This document shows, piece by piece, positions 11,967-27,274 of a stretch of 64,000 bases of DNA; position 1 is the stretch's first letter; each line of letters begins with the position of its first letter. Origin of the DNA: Methylobacterium sp. 10 (lineage in GTDB: Bacteria > Pseudomonadota > Alphaproteobacteria > Rhizobiales > Beijerinckiaceae); contig NZ_KI912577.1 of NCBI RefSeq assembly GCF_000519085.1, positions 2,609,331 through 2,673,330 on the forward strand, written 5' to 3'. A model generated the notes under the pieces. The model made no database searches and was not told the origin of the DNA. It worked only from the letters and a program-made list of their open reading frames with translations. The translations under genes and the position numbers were made by a program.

Positions 11967-11991
11967 AACGCCACATGGGACACCGGGTTCC
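11967..11991 (-). promoter_or_regulatory. EcfG-type stress promoter
   Basis: On the minus strand, GGAAC (11991-11987) and CGTT (11970-11967) are separated by exactly 16 bp, matching the alphaproteobacterial EcfG consensus without mismatch. It faces the 48-aa gene. Confidence 0.75.
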
Positions 11992-12216
11992 ACACCAAGG
12001 TCAACCGCTATGTGGGGCTTACCTCCAAGCACCGGCAAGAGACCCGTCGATATGACGCATGTCTTCGATGCGCGCCGTGCCACGGACCCTCTCACTCATA
12101 CGCCTGGGCAGGCGAACGGCGGGAGACAGCGTCATTGGAAAAAGGAGCGTCCCGATGGACGCGGTCCCGGCGGGTCGGCGCCGAACATCAATCGTGACCG
12201 CTTTGTGTCAAAGTCA

Positions 12217-12241
12217 GGAACCGGCCGGACAACTTGGCGTT
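12217..12241 (+). promoter_or_regulatory. EcfG-type stress promoter of the DUF1328 gene
   Basis: GGAAC (12217-12221), 16-bp spacer, CGTT (12238-12241). The predicted transcript starts near 12248, leaving a leader of about 50 nt before the DUF1328 start codon. Confidence 0.8.
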
Positions 12242-12296
12242 ATTGGTGTCATGAGGTCGCGGCACAGGTCGCGCCAGCTTCAAAAGGATCCGGACC

Positions 12297-12473
12297 ATGC
12301 TTGGTTGGGCTGTAACATTCCTCGTCGTCGCCCTCGTCGCTGCTCTGCTTGGCTTTGGTGGTATTGCCGGTACGGCGATGGAAGCCGCAAAGCTCGTCTT
12401 CTTCGTGGCGATCGTCCTGTTCGCCATCTCAGCCGTGATCGGCCTGATGCGCGGCCGTTCGCCGACGCTCTGA
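12297..12473 (+). CDS. DUF1328 small membrane protein
   Basis: A 58-aa protein made of two hydrophobic helices, [25 protein letters not shown] and [20 protein letters not shown], joined by a short AGTAMEAA turn. It ends RGRSPTL. This matches the YtjA/DUF1328 family, small inner-membrane proteins often induced by stress. The ribosome site AGGA lies 8-10 nt before the ATG. A perfect EcfG promoter upstream and an intrinsic terminator 50 bp downstream make it a single-gene stress transcript. The molecular function is unknown. Confidence 0.88.
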
Positions 12474-12523
12474 TTAATCGATCGGCCGGCGTAGTCAGAC
12501 GGCTGTAGACGGATACGCAGAAA

Positions 12524-12550
12524 GCCGCCGGGTCATCCGGCGGCTTTTCT
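12524..12550 (+). terminator. Intrinsic terminator after the DUF1328 gene
   Basis: An 8-bp GC stem GCCGCCGG/CCGGCGGC with a 5-nt loop is followed by TTTTCTT. It also begins with AAA on the opposite side, so it may stop nepR transcripts from the right as well. Confidence 0.85.
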
Positions 12551-12635
12551 TCGATAGAGAGCGATCCACGACACTGACTTGGATGCCCTCGATCGTGCCG
12601 ATACACACGCCCGGAGCCGTGCCCGTGGTGTAGCT

Positions 12636-12872
12636 TCAAGCTTCGTCGAGGGTTTGAACGGAGGAATCGTCCATTCGGGCGATCAGATCGCGAAAACGAT
12701 CCGGAACCGGTTGCTGAACGATGGTGTCGTACATGGCTCGCAGGTGCAGGCCGATTCGCTTCTGAGTGAGATCACTCAGGCGGTGGGGTTCTGGACCTTC
12801 TGGCTTCGGCTCACGTTCCTGCTCCGATCGCGTCTCCGTTGCGGAGATGCGGCCCGTCTCGTCTTCGTCCAT
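12636..12872 (-). CDS. nepR: NepR-family anti-sigma factor of the general stress response
   Basis: A 78-aa protein. The diagnostic NepR core is at residues about 38-68: IGLHLRAMYDTIVQQPVPDRFRDLIARMD. In known systems NepR holds the sigma factor EcfG inactive until phosphorylated PhyR captures NepR. The N-terminus is acidic and probably disordered, and the C-terminal tail is short. The start at 12872 is preceded by AAGGGG at proper spacing. The upstream ATG at 12938 would lie within a few nucleotides of the predicted transcription start and is disfavoured. It is divergent from phyR. Unusually for alphaproteobacteria, no ecfG gene follows it; EcfG must be encoded elsewhere. Confidence 0.9.
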   Translation of the reverse strand: MDEDETGRISATETRSEQEREPKPEGPEPHRLSDLTQKRIGLHLRAMYDTIVQQPVPDRFRDLIARMDDSSVQTLDEA

Positions 12873-12950
12873 TCGGTTATCCCCTTGATGCCACGTGGTG
12901 GCATCGCCGCGATTGTTTTGCGGCTTGACATAAGTCATGGCTGCACCTGC

Positions 12951-12975
12951 AACGCAGCGCCATACAATCGGTTCC
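12951..12975 (-). promoter_or_regulatory. EcfG-type promoter of nepR
   Basis: On the minus strand, GGAAC (12975-12971), 16-bp spacer, CGTT (12954-12951), with no mismatch to the consensus. It gives a leader of about 70 nt to the chosen nepR start. This implies that the stress sigma factor activates its own anti-sigma gene. Confidence 0.85.
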
Positions 12976-12984
12976 GGGCTTAGC

Positions 12985-13009
12985 GGAACACAGCCCATCG
13001 ATCCGCGTT
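12985..13009 (+). promoter_or_regulatory. EcfG-type promoter of phyR
   Basis: GGAAC (12985-12989), 16-bp spacer, CGTT (13006-13009). The -35 elements of this and the nepR promoter lie only 9 bp apart and back-to-back, so two holoenzymes would compete or occupy opposite faces. Confidence 0.85.
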
Positions 13010-13053
13010 GTGGCGGTGGCGACCATAAAGAACGGCAGAGCCAAGGGGATCTA

Positions 13054-13854
13054 ATGTCGACAGCTCAACTCGTCGTGCAACATCTGCCGTACCTGCGCCG
13101 CTACGCGCGGGCGCTGACCGGCAGCCAGGTCGCCGGCGATGCCTACGTGGCCGCCACCCTGGAAACGCTCGTGAACGAGCCTGACACGTTGGGGCGCAGC
13201 ACCAATGTCAAGGCCGACCTGTTCCGTGTCTATACGCGCATCTGGAACTCTCTCTCGGTGAACGGCCAGAGCGATCATGTCCAGCATGACCTGCCCGCCG
13301 AAGTGCGCCTCGGCCAGATCACGCCGCTGCCGCGCCAAGCCTTCCTCTTGTCGTGCCTCGAGGGCTTCTCCGAGGAGGACGCCGCCGTGATCCTCGAGGT
13401 AGACGTCAGCCAAGTCCGCGACCTCGTCGACGAAGCAGGTCGGGAACTGGCGGCCGACATGGCGACGGAGATCCTCATCATTGAGGACGAGCCTCTGATC
13501 GCCATGGATCTCGAAGCCCTCGTGGAAGGCCTTGGCCACAATGTGATCGGCGTGGCACGCACGCGCACCGAGGCGATCAAGATCGCGTCTGAGGGTTCGC
13601 GCCCGGGCCTGATCCTGGCGGACATCCAGCTCGCCGACGGCTCGTCGGGTCTCGATGCCGTCAACGACCTCCTGAAGACCTTCGAGGTTCCGGTGATCTT
13701 CATCACCGCCTATCCCGAGCGGTTCCTCACCGGAGAACGTCCGGAGCCGGCCTTCCTGATCGCCAAGCCGTTCCAGCCGGCCAACGTGTCGGCCGTGATC
13801 AGCCAGGCGCTGTTCTTTCAGCAGAGCGCTCGCCGGCGCGATAAGTCGGCCTGA
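13054..13854 (+). CDS. phyR: PhyR, response regulator of the general stress response
   Basis: A 266-aa protein. Residues about 1-130 form the sigma-like domain (HLPYLRRYARALTGSQVAGDAYV, PLPRQAFLLSCLEGFSEEDAAVILEVDVSQV) that mimics EcfG to bind NepR. Residues about 138-258 form a receiver domain with the acidic pocket IEDEPLIAMD, phosphoacceptor D190 in LILADIQL, and the FITAYPERFLTG segment of the FATGUY class. Phosphorylation opens the protein so that it sequesters NepR and frees EcfG. D190 coincides with the phosphoacceptor of Methylobacterium extorquens PhyR. An AAGGGG ribosome site precedes the ATG. A GC-rich terminator follows. Confidence 0.97.
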   Translation: MSTAQLVVQHLPYLRRYARALTGSQVAGDAYVAATLETLVNEPDTLGRSTNVKADLFRVYTRIWNSLSVNGQSDHVQHDLPAEVRLGQITPLPRQAFLLSCLEGFSEEDAAVILEVDVSQVRDLVDEAGRELAADMATEILIIEDEPLIAMDLEALVEGLGHNVIGVARTRTEAIKIASEGSRPGLILADIQLADGSSGLDAVNDLLKTFEVPVIFITAYPERFLTGERPEPAFLIAKPFQPANVSAVISQALFFQQSARRRDKSA

Positions 13855-13895
13855 CCCACGGAAGCCGCACTTCGCAGCAGGTTGAGCGACGCAAG

Positions 13896-13925
13896 AAGCC
13901 CCGGTCTCGGACCGGGGCTTTTCTT
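13896..13925 (+). terminator. Intrinsic terminator of phyR
   Basis: A 10-bp stem AAGCCCCGGT/ACCGGGGCTT with loop CTCGG, followed by TTCTT, 41 bp after the phyR stop codon. Confidence 0.9.
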
Positions 13926-13951
13926 ATGGCGATTGACACCGTCCAAGCATG

Positions 13952-13981
13952 AAAAAACGGGCCGGACAGGGTCCGGCCCGT
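13952..13981 (-). terminator. Intrinsic terminator of the phyR-adjacent small RNA
   Basis: An 11-bp stem ACGGGCCGGAC/GTCCGGCCCGT with a 3-nt loop. On the minus strand it is followed by a run of six T. The plus strand lacks a T-run after the stem, so it works leftward only. Confidence 0.85.
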
Positions 13982-14039
13982 AAAAAGTTTCCGGCCAATG
14001 CACAAGGGGAATGCGGGGGAGGACCAGGCGGCCGGGTGA
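13952..14039 (-). ncRNA. Candidate EcfG-dependent small RNA (GsrN-like) next to phyR
   Basis: No credible reading frame fits here. On the minus strand, a perfect EcfG promoter (14070-14046) is followed about 90 nt later by an intrinsic terminator. The predicted RNA has a CCGGCC/GGCCGG stem (14035-14030 with 13996-13991). Its large loop carries two C-rich stretches, CCTCCCCC (14022-14015) and TCCCCTT. Such unpaired C-runs can pair with Shine-Dalgarno sequences. Caulobacter GsrN, a general-stress small RNA encoded beside the stress-response genes, has the same design: sigma promoter, C-rich loop and terminator. The homology itself is inferred. The start is estimated at 6-8 nt from the -10 element. 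Confidence 0.6.
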
Positions 14040-14045
14040 CCTGAC

Positions 14046-14070
14046 AACGAGCCTGACGCAACACGGTTCC
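14046..14070 (-). promoter_or_regulatory. EcfG-type promoter of the phyR-adjacent small RNA
   Basis: On the minus strand, GGAAC (14070-14066), 16-bp spacer, CGTT (14049-14046), with no mismatch. Confidence 0.8.
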
Positions 14071-14210
14071 AAAAAATGCGCTGCCTGCCATTTCTTGGAT
14101 TGACGTGCTTTTTATGCAACGAACGTCGGCTGGCGACTCGCTACAAACTGAAAACTTTTCGCAACAAACAGAGTCTTATTTACTAGCCGTAAAGTTTTTA
14201 GACCAGTCAA

Positions 14211-14236
14211 GGAACCCGTGACCAGCTCGTTTCGTT
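14211..14236 (+). promoter_or_regulatory. EcfG-type promoter of the small exported protein gene
   Basis: GGAAC (14211-14215), 17-bp spacer, CGTT (14233-14236). It lies 40 bp before the ATG at 14276. The spacer is 17 rather than 16 bp, which the consensus allows. Confidence 0.75.
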
Positions 14237-25256: not shown

Positions 25257-25490
25257 TCGACGCGCGGCCGGCTTTTATTCTTGCGACCTGATCGATCTCG
25301 CGCCGAGCGCGACGCCTGTCGGCGTTTATACGGCTTCGTCGCGCGAGGTCTCATTCCCCATGCGCCGCAACGTATCTGGGGAGGCGTAGGGCAGCTTTCC
25401 CGGACCGAGGCACTTCCAGGCGCCTTGCACGCTCCGATACGCTGCCCGGCATGACGTCCTGTTGCGGCATTCATGGATGGAGCGAAGACG

Positions 25491-26090
25491 ATGGCGAAGG
25501 TTCTGGTTCTCTACTACTCGTCCTGGGGACATGTGGAGCAGATGGCGCACGCCGTGGCGGAGGGAGCCCGTGAGGCCGGGGCCGAGGTCAGCGTGAAGCG
25601 CGTGCCGGAACTCGTCCCCGACGATGTCGCCAGGCAGTCCCACTATAAGCTCGACCAAGAGGCGCCCATCGCCACCGTGGACGAACTGGCCGATTACGAC
25701 GCGATCATCTTCGGTACGCCCACGCGCTACGGCAACATGGCTGCCCAGATGAAGCAGTTCATCGACCAGACCGGCGGTCTCTGGGCGGAGGGCAAGCTGA
25801 TCGGCAAAGTCGGTTCGGTCTTCACCTCCACCGCCTCCCAGCATGGCGGACAGGAGACGACGCTCACGAGCTTCCACACCGTGCTTTTCCATCACGGCAT
25901 GGTCGTCGTTGGTCTGCCCTACGCCTTCGCCGGACAGAACGGTGTCGAGCAGGTGAAGGGCGGTACACCCTATGGCGCCTCCACGATCGCCGATGGCGAC
26001 GGAAGCCGGCTGCCGGCCAGTATCGAACTCGATGGCGCCCGCTATCAGGGCAGGCACGTGGCCGGCATCGCCGCCAAGCTCGCCGGCTGA
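25491..26090 (+). CDS. wrbA: NAD(P)H:quinone oxidoreductase WrbA
   Basis: A 199-aa flavodoxin-fold protein. FMN phosphate-binding loop [12 protein letters not shown], then [27 protein letters not shown] and [17 protein letters not shown], are all diagnostic of WrbA. It reduces quinones with two electrons in the cytoplasm, limiting oxidative stress. The start MAKVLVLYY has a GGAG ribosome site at good spacing. No EcfG promoter was found directly upstream, although a stress small-RNA candidate lies just downstream on the other strand. Confidence 0.95.
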
Positions 26091-26162: not shown

Positions 26163-26191
26163 AAAAAAGGCTCGGATGATATCCGAGCCTT
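26163..26191 (-). terminator. Intrinsic terminator of the second small RNA
   Basis: An 11-bp stem AAGGCTCGGAT/ATCCGAGCCTT with a 3-nt loop. On the minus strand it is followed by a T-run (TTTTTTCT). The plus strand lacks one, so it does not serve wrbA. Confidence 0.88.
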
Positions 26192-26233
26192 GAAAGGAGG
26201 AAGGTCATCTGGGGGCTGAACCGACCTTCGTGT
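26163..26233 (-). ncRNA. Candidate EcfG-dependent small RNA with anti-Shine-Dalgarno motif
   Basis: A perfect EcfG promoter (26264-26240, minus strand) is followed about 70 nt later by a strong terminator, with no reading frame between. The predicted RNA forms a 7-bp hairpin GAAGGTC/GACCTTC (26229-26223 with 26206-26200) whose 16-nt loop holds CCCCC. A pyrimidine-rich stretch centred on TCCTCC (about 26203-26192) follows the hairpin and is complementary to a strong Shine-Dalgarno site. The terminator then follows. The design parallels the candidate near phyR. The transcript start is an estimate. Confidence 0.6.
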
Positions 26234-26239
26234 ATGACG

Positions 26240-26264
26240 AACGTGCTCAGGGCACACGAGTTCC
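26240..26264 (-). promoter_or_regulatory. EcfG-type promoter of the second small RNA
   Basis: On the minus strand, GGAAC (26264-26260), 16-bp spacer, CGTT (26243-26240). It matches the consensus fully and is 12 kb from the phyR island. Confidence 0.75.
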
Positions 26265-26281: not shown

Positions 26282-27274
26282 TCAGCGGGGTGCTGCGGCC
26301 CGGCGCAGCCGATCGTTGATCGCCTCGCCGAGGCCCGTCCGGGGGATCGGAGCGACGGCGATGGTCCCGGTTCCGGCCTCGTCCAGATGCCGCAGAGCGG
26401 AGAACAGGCTGGCGGCGGCCTCCTGCAGATCGCCGGCTGCGCTCAAGTTCAAGCGCGCTGTCGCCGCTTCCGTTCCCGGCGGGTCCACGGGGCCGAAGAG
26501 GAGAACCGCTTCGTTCGGTTCCACCCGCGACGCGTCCAGGCGCACGGCGGCCCGTGGCGCGTAGTGGGAAGCGAGGAGGCCGGGACCGATCGGCGCCTCG
26601 CCGGACTCCTGACCGCCGTCTAGGGCAAATCCCAGAACCGCCTCGACCGCCTCCCGCGTCACGCCGCCGGGACGCAACAGGCGCGCACGACCGTCGAGAC
26701 AAGCGATGACCGTCGATTCCACGCCAACCGGAGTACATCCTCCATCGAGTATTGCGGCGATGCGGCCGTCGAGATCGGCGAGGACGTGCTCGGCACGGGT
26801 CGGGCTCACACGGCCCGAACGGTTGGCGGAGGGCGCCGCCACGGGCCGCCCGACTTTTCGCAGCAGGGACAGGGCGACGGGATTGGCCGGGACGCGCAGG
26901 GCCACGCTGGGCAGACCGGCGCGTGCCAGATCACTGACGGTTCCCCCCGATGCCGCCGGGACGACGAGCGTCAGCGGACCGGGCCAGAATGCCTCCGCGA
27001 GGCGGAGAGCGATCCCGTCGAACACGCCTTCGCGCCGTGCGGCATCGAGACCGGGCACGTGTGCGATCAGCGGGTTGAAGCTCGGCCGCTCCTTGGCCGC
27101 ATAGATCCGCGCGACGGCGCCCGCGTCGGAGGCATCGGCGCCAAGCCCGTAGACCGTCTCGGTGGGAAAGGCGACGAGCCGGCCGTTCCGCAGGACTTGC
27201 GCGGATCGCTCGATGCCGGCCTCGTCCGTGCCCAGCCACAGCGTCTTGCCGGGGATTGACCCGAGATCGTTCAT
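26282..27274 (-). CDS. L-threonylcarbamoyladenylate synthase (Sua5 type)
   Basis: A 330-aa enzyme making threonylcarbamoyl-AMP from threonine, bicarbonate and ATP for the t6A37 modification of tRNA. The N-terminal YrdC domain contains GRLVAFPTETVYGLGADA, AAKERPSFNPLIAHV, FWPGPLTLVV, SVALRVPANPVA and GRPVAAPSANRSGRVSPT. The C-terminal Sua5 extension begins after the linker at GLLASHYAPRA. The start at 27274 is the first methionine of the conserved frame; the much longer open frame upstream is a shadow of the acyl-CoA dehydrogenase gene. It is divergent from that gene. Confidence 0.92.
   Translation of the reverse strand: MNDLGSIPGKTLWLGTDEAGIERSAQVLRNGRLVAFPTETVYGLGADASDAGAVARIYAAKERPSFNPLIAHVPGLDAARREGVFDGIALRLAEAFWPGPLTLVVPAASGGTVSDLARAGLPSVALRVPANPVALSLLRKVGRPVAAPSANRSGRVSPTRAEHVLADLDGRIAAILDGGCTPVGVESTVIACLDGRARLLRPGGVTREAVEAVLGFALDGGQESGEAPIGPGLLASHYAPRAAVRLDASRVEPNEAVLLFGPVDPPGTEAATARLNLSAAGDLQEAAASLFSALRHLDEAGTGTIAVAPIPRTGLGEAINDRLRRAAAPR

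Follow-up and report, generated by a model that had tools for sequence, protein, structure and literature searches.

The minus strand between positions 26264 and 26163 of the window (the whole stretch of 64,000 nucleotides that was analyzed) very probably encodes a short general-stress-response RNA of Methylobacterium. In the preferred reading, to which a probability of about 0.62 is assigned, this RNA would be a trans-acting sRNA of the general stress response of this genus, with a constant loop of five cytosines (C5) as the likely seed for a small number of target mRNAs. The gene structure, the promoter, the terminator, the predicted fold and their conservation are all apparent from the sequences compared, and they are described in the following sections together with the searches for targets.

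Structure of the Predicted RNA Gene

The layout of the gene, its neighbors and the other loci mentioned in the text is given in Table 1. An earlier interpretation of this DNA, the sequence-only reading, had placed a perfect EcfG promoter on the minus strand, followed by a gene-free RNA of about 70 nt with a C5-containing hairpin loop and a strong terminator. The promoter was read directly in the sequence, the predicted RNA of approximately 72 nt agrees with the length proposed, and the loop and the terminator were both recovered. A short leader separates the −10 box from the 5′ hairpin in the minus-strand sequence of the window. The fold predicted for the 72-nt RNA reached −28 kcal/mol, whereas shuffled sequences averaged −13.95 (z −5.6), and 0 of 200 shuffles folded as well. 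When the whole window was scanned with Rfam at the gathering scores, one tRNA was the sole match. The linker CTCCTTTC together with C26200 reads CCTCC, which is the anti-Shine-Dalgarno segment of the earlier interpretation and is complementary to a GGAGG-type site. Since this motif begins with a C (26200) that closes the 5′ hairpin, the anti-Shine-Dalgarno-like stretch would be partly bound.

Table 1. Position of the predicted RNA gene, of its neighbors and of the other loci mentioned in the text.
Feature	Position	Strand	Remarks
σEcfG promoter, GGAAC-N16-CGTT	26240–26264	−	−35 box 26264–26260, −10 box 26243–26240; direct sequence reading
Predicted small RNA, ~72 nt	26163–26234	−	Start set from the promoter, ±2 nt
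5′ hairpin, GAAGGTC (26229–26223)/GACCTTC (26206–26200)	26200–26229	−	7 bp, 16-nt loop
Loop GGTTCAGCCCCCAGAT	26207–26222	−	C5 at 26215–26211; putative pairing (seed) element
Pyrimidine linker CTCCTTTC	26192–26199	−	Predicted single-stranded
Strong intrinsic terminator, AAGGCTCGGAT-ATC-ATCCGAGCCTT	26163–26191	−	Hairpin 26191–26167, T-run to 26163
Upstream neighbor, Sua5-type L-threonylcarbamoyladenylate synthase	26282–27250	−	ORF end; start not fixed; TIGR00057, 174 bits, above cut-off
Convergent downstream neighbor, WrbA-type NAD(P)H:quinone oxidoreductase	25473–26090	+	TIGR01755, 341 bits, above cut-off
Twin RNA, beside PhyR	13952–14070	−	EcfG promoter 14070–14046, predicted sRNA to 13952
PhyR	13054–13854	+	NF006623, above cut-off
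NepR-like protein	within 12636–12998		35.6 bits, below the cut-off of 100
RF00519 loci L061–L063	G000:C1 2088701–2088775, 3285461–3285534, 1168991–1169067		

Promoter Matches in the Genome

Perfect sites of the form GGAAC-N16,17-CGTT were found 64 times genome-wide versus 41 times for the reversed pattern, and a promoter match alone is therefore weak evidence. The approximately 270 bases after each of these 64 sites were surveyed for terminators with a crude script, which considered perfect promoters only. A terminator-like hairpin within 150 nt was detected after two of the 64, namely the site of the RNA described here and that of a second candidate at 14.0 kb, referred to below as the twin. 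The two instances pointed out in the sequence-only reading are thus the only such cases among the perfect promoter matches. A third perfect promoter (L222) has a hairpin 206 nt downstream and was excluded by the 150-nt limit. The rarity of the terminator (2/64), taken together with the conservation reported below, makes a chance origin very unlikely.

The Twin RNA and the phyR Locus

The RNA at 26163–26234 sits 12 kb from phyR/nepR, with the twin lying in between. In another genome, G018, both are found on one contig, the RNA at 4,498,835 and the twin at 3,132,957. The twin region (13945–14080) had a match in each of the 37 genomes of the genus that were searched, and in none of 24 other genomes. 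Among 30 twin loci, the promoter reads GGAAC-N16,17-C/GGTT in 29 and has TGTT in one. The CCTCCCC of the twin loop and its terminator were kept in all of the 30 loci checked, unlike the corresponding motif of the RNA at 26163–26234. The loop of the twin, GGTCCTCCCC..CATTCCCCTTGTGC, differs from the GGTTCAGCCCCCAGAT loop; what the two RNAs have in common is the plan and not the sequence. Given this common plan without visible common sequence, the RNA and its twin are read as two families and not as members of a single one.

Additional EcfG promoter matches were observed around nepR/phyR, where six perfect ones lie within 2.3 kb (window positions 11967–14236). One of the EcfG promoter matches, at 12217–12241, precedes a small hydrophobic protein (about 12298–12474), presumably of the DUF1328 type.

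Distribution of the RNA

Of 99 genomes searched by blastn with the 121-base region, 52 had a match, corresponding to the genome of origin, 51 of 58 others of the same genus and 0 of 40 outside the genus. A covariance model (R1), for which 43 sequences were used, recovered the RNA in six of the seven same-genus genomes missed by blastn (53–65 bits), and all six copies showed the promoter, the C5 loop and the terminator when they were read. By the two methods together, the RNA is present in 58 of the 59 same-genus genomes, its own included; the remaining one, G015, gave no credible match with either blastn or the covariance model.

Over the whole order, the covariance model matched 203 of 347 genomes at E ≤ 0.01, eight of them from the same genus. 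The 22 loci read from outside the genus (L077–L098) were rejected: all had a similar GC-rich terminator only, AGCCCCC was absent near every one of the 22, and L085 was the sole one with an EcfG-like motif in the 400 bases scanned. A stem-loop pattern scan of a collection of named genomes (one genome per species, 84,980 species by its description) returned 62 records, all from Methylobacterium, Methylorubrum or one Methylobacteriaceae MAG. The promoter-plus-AGCCCCCA pattern was found in 10 of 10 same-genus genomes. Elsewhere in the family, 6 of the 189 genomes scanned had it, a background level that was not above the reversed control (18 control matches, counted by eye). As far as the genomes compared here indicate, the RNA family is new and restricted to the genus.

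Conservation of the Promoter and the Fold

The promoter and the loop were compared in 54 loci (52 loci plus L069 and L073), and spacers of 16 and 17 nt only were tried. The −35 box reads GGAAC in 53 of the 54 and is absent from one, while the −10 box is CGTT in 35, TGTT in nine, CATT in nine and GATT in one. Nineteen loci thus deviate at the −10 box (TGTT or CATT in 18, GATT in one) from GAAC-N16,17-C/GGTT, the consensus given for M. extorquens EcfG in passages of PMC4814048. The spacer measures 16 nt in 46 of the 54 loci and 17 nt in the other eight, and the distance from the −10 box to the RNA hairpin is 9 nt in 53 loci and 10 nt in one. The pairwise identity across the 42 loci with a 16-nt spacer was 37% for the spacer and 84% for the −10 box; the value of 1.00 for the −35 box is built in, because the comparison took only loci with an exact GGAAC (51/52).

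These figures bear on the interpretation that there is no separate RNA gene, in which the sua5 transcript would simply end and terminate in these hairpins and the promoter match would be due to chance. The genomic context agrees with it, given that at 57 of 58 homologous loci the adjacent upstream gene, in the same orientation, is sua5 (it was undetected in one) and that perfect promoter matches are common (64 versus 41 for the control). However, both promoter boxes and the distance that separates them from the hairpin are conserved although the spacer between them is 37% identical, and a bare terminator has no need of a second, conserved hairpin carrying a C5 loop; this interpretation is considered extremely unlikely. 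On the other side of the gene, wrbA is present at 42 of the 58 homologous loci and lies on the opposite strand in all 41 that were re-examined.

The predicted fold was examined for covariation in 29 diverse sequences chosen by hand. Of 492 cells, 99.2% were paired, and changes on both sides were observed at five pairs. Helix 1, the 5′ hairpin, had 100% of its cells paired, with one pair changing from CG to UA in 10 of the 29 sequences; in helix 2, the terminator, both sides had changed at four pairs. None of 500 shuffles, which ignore the relatedness of the sequences, reached the observed values in four of five measures including the covariation score, four of 500 reached the fifth, and all slid versions of the fold scored far lower. 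At one homologous locus (L014, near 1480–1520), CAAGAAAAAAGGCTCG occurs twice at the distal side of the terminator, as if the outer arm had been partly duplicated.

A small protein was considered as the product of the region and was rejected on account of the length of the linker, which is 10, 11 or 12 nt among the loci: shifts of one and two bases break any common reading frame, and a coding function is thus unlikely. This is in line with the RNA being noncoding, as the earlier interpretation had it.

The Loop and the Linker

The element that hardly varies is the loop. All 54 loci have its core, GCCCCCA, and 50 of them have CAGCCCCCA, and GCCCCC was kept in all 60 when six diverged copies were added. 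The mean unpaired probability of the loop CCCC was 0.97, with a lowest value of 0.75 (53 loci, the set used for the linker as well, which leaves out the five diverged loci L296–L300). The conservation of the promoter, the loop and the terminator in relatives, on which the earlier interpretation had invited a check, was therefore observed for each of them (GGAAC in 53/54, GCCCCC in 60/60).

The linker behaved differently. CCTCC occurs in 3 of the 60 loci, namely this one, L011 and the diverged copy L300, where it is shifted toward the terminator, while the other five diverged copies read CCGCCTC (four) or CCCCCTT (one). Its pyrimidine character is nevertheless kept, with purines at 5 of 398 positions over the 53 loci when the last three linker bases are excluded, and it is mostly unpaired (mean probability 0.86, lowest 0.37). 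The linker thus drifts in sequence while staying mostly pyrimidine, next to a C5 loop that is almost invariant.

The exposed CTTCCTCCTTTC anti-Shine-Dalgarno segment of the sequence-only reading was accordingly not supported as a motif, its pyrimidine character being what is kept; in the loci compared, the mechanism proposed there rests on a poorly conserved segment. In that mechanism the linker CCTTCCTCCTTTC would be an anti-Shine-Dalgarno decoy or blocker, covering ribosome-binding sites broadly. Its complementarity to a GGAGG-type site in this genome (with the adjoining C), the unpaired and pyrimidine-rich state of the linkers and the retention of CCTCCCC in the twin are compatible with such a role. 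Yet the first base of CCTCC lies in a stem, and the motif is missing in nearly all relatives, which disfavors a function that depends on CCUCC, and the decoy is regarded as distinctly unlikely. A pyrimidine linker would still allow weak pairing to sites of the AAGGA or AAGGG type. Of the two, the loop is more likely to be what pairs with targets, as in GsrN of Caulobacter.

Search for Targets

Perfect 9-nt complements of the loop at 0–30 nt before an ATG were not enriched, with 12 matches versus 16 for the reversed control. The 12 matches represent 11 distinct sites, one of which is the antisense of the sRNA itself. The sole plausible match at a ribosome-binding site belongs to an RTX-repeat protein (L265:115–1503, minus strand), where an 11-nt perfect complement covers the site. 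The first 146 residues of this protein had matches in 4 of 41 genomes, its own included, and the 11-mer was absent from the 10 other leaders examined out of the 18 other matches listed.

Passages of a 2016 study of M. extorquens report that stress raises the EcfG3 protein and not its transcript, with proteolysis, or possibly a small RNA, as the means (PMC4814048), and for this reason the leaders of ecfG-like genes were searched. No pairing above that of shuffles was obtained in the own genome (three loci) or in five relatives (19 of 30 loci); the longest loop complements were 5–7 nt and were reached by 17–99% of the shuffles. One 7-mer at −103 is common to two genomes (L323, L324), and GGGGGCT is found at −94 in L331. 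One of the ecfG-like matches of genome G009 (L320) contains an in-frame TGA.

The katG leaders were also analyzed, in 15 cases and over 200 bases upstream of the start codon, and gave no kept complement of the loop; isolated 6-nt complements were present in 2 of the 15. The start codons were assigned by a simple rule and are probably too far downstream in several cases, and since start codons were set by rules of this kind, the negative results on targets are weak. The katG match is split into two pieces in G024 (L355, L357), and that of G009 (L356) is partial with two in-frame TGA.

These leaders are relevant to the idea that the RNA activates, in which its C-rich loop would bind a G-tract of an mRNA leader and thereby open or stabilize this leader, as GsrN does on katG. 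The promoter type and the C-rich 5′ loop are shared with GsrN as described in passages of PMC5869019. On the other hand, besides the scarcity of complements in the katG leaders, 12 of 29 genomes of the genus have no katG match and all 12 carry the RNA. Activation as the main mode of action is thus judged unlikely, and the RNA may activate a target other than katG.

Alternatively, the RNA could be a sponge or antagonist, with the C5 loop titrating another RNA or an RNA-binding protein instead of mRNAs. A single, strongly conserved loop for which no conserved mRNA partner was detected would fit such a function. However, no candidate partner RNA came up in the analyses made here. The target search covered perfect 9-mers and a selection of leaders, which makes the missing mRNA targets weak evidence for a sponge, and this function appears highly unlikely.

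Proposed Mode of Action and Its Significance

From the features of the gene we infer its transcription and its dependence on EcfG in the cell, and the preferred reading of a trans-acting sRNA would then proceed as follows. Under stress signaling, PhyR would free σEcfG from NepR, and RNA polymerase with σEcfG would initiate at about 26234 and terminate intrinsically at 26163, which would yield an RNA of ~72 nt. The first hairpin would hold the constant loop ..AGCCCCCA.. single-stranded, and this loop, as the most likely seed, would recognize a small number of mRNAs by pairing with stretches rich in G (UGGGGGCU). Pairing in trans with UGGGGGCU-like sequences is expected by analogy with the six-C loop of GsrN, which acts on G-rich mRNA stretches. 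It would most simply take place at or near ribosome-binding sites and lower translation, and an activation like that of katG by GsrN could also occur. G-rich runs are common at ribosome-binding sites, which makes repression the simplest outcome, and the blocking of such sites by the RNA, put forward in the earlier interpretation, is likewise something that we infer. The pyrimidine linker probably adds weak pairing or serves as a spacer for protein binding or processing.

A broader scheme can be drawn, in which the two unrelated EcfG sRNAs with C-rich loops form a private post-transcriptional arm of the stress response, dividing between them the task of GsrN and explaining control at the level of protein and not of transcript, for example of EcfG3; this scheme is speculative and seems rather doubtful. 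Among the papers listed in the literature covered, with most subscription papers and all supplements outside its scope, no EcfG-controlled sRNA of Methylobacterium or Methylorubrum was found. Two short, conserved sRNA candidates with exact coordinates make the control of EcfG3 by a small RNA directly testable.

Comparison With Known Systems

Like the σEcfG-dependent sRNAs of alphaproteobacteria, the predicted RNA has a conserved EcfG promoter directly upstream, although 19 of the 54 loci depart from C/GGTT, and it appears from its sequence to be noncoding, with its own terminator and a conserved structure.

The best of the Rfam matches obtained, by bits and by E-value, was ar8/MmgR (RF00519, "suhB"). 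Membership in this family was rejected, since the score was 19.6 bits (E 0.04) versus a gathering score of 41. The likeness consists of a 5′ hairpin, a TTCCTCC segment and a terminator; the TTTCCTCCCT core is not conserved here (CCTCC in 3/60 loci), and the promoter is of the EcfG type. Moreover, the own genome carries three separate RF00519 loci above the gathering score (76.3, 75.2, and 46.0 bits), all of which read TTTCCTCCCT.

Among sRNAs with C-rich loops in other phyla, LhrC, B11, and RsaE pair with Shine-Dalgarno regions through C-rich unpaired stretches. Their hosts and promoters are different, and the comparison, made by description, is one of analogy only.

ReC64 of Rhizobium etli is a noncoding RNA at the phyR locus with a σEcfG1 promoter motif, whose start was mapped via 5′ RACE and whose EcfG dependence was established with a reporter, according to passages of PMC3892343. 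Compared by description, it resembles the predicted RNA in being noncoding and in having an EcfG-type promoter motif, and the twin is its positional counterpart.

GsrN of Caulobacter crescentus, as presented in passages of PMC5869019, is transcribed directly by the general stress sigma factor of the EcfG type; it has a loop of six C that binds G-rich stretches of mRNA, and it activates katG. The same passages place its BLASTn homologues in Caulobacteraceae only and describe GsrN-like genes predicted beside phyR in several Rhizobiales. The gsrN gene of C. crescentus is itself distal to phyR/nepR, and proximity to these genes is the paper's criterion for candidates outside Caulobacteraceae (PMC5869019). 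In Methylobacterium, the position beside phyR is occupied by the twin, and the RNA at 26163–26234 does not lie there. No counterpart of the katG site of GsrN was seen in the 15 katG leaders. GsrN is known from Caulobacteraceae, whereas the RNA described here was found in Methylobacterium only, and the two are likened by promoter and loop: a promoter of the EcfG type, predicted in the present case, and a C-rich unpaired 5′ loop, with six C in GsrN and five in the Methylobacterium RNA.
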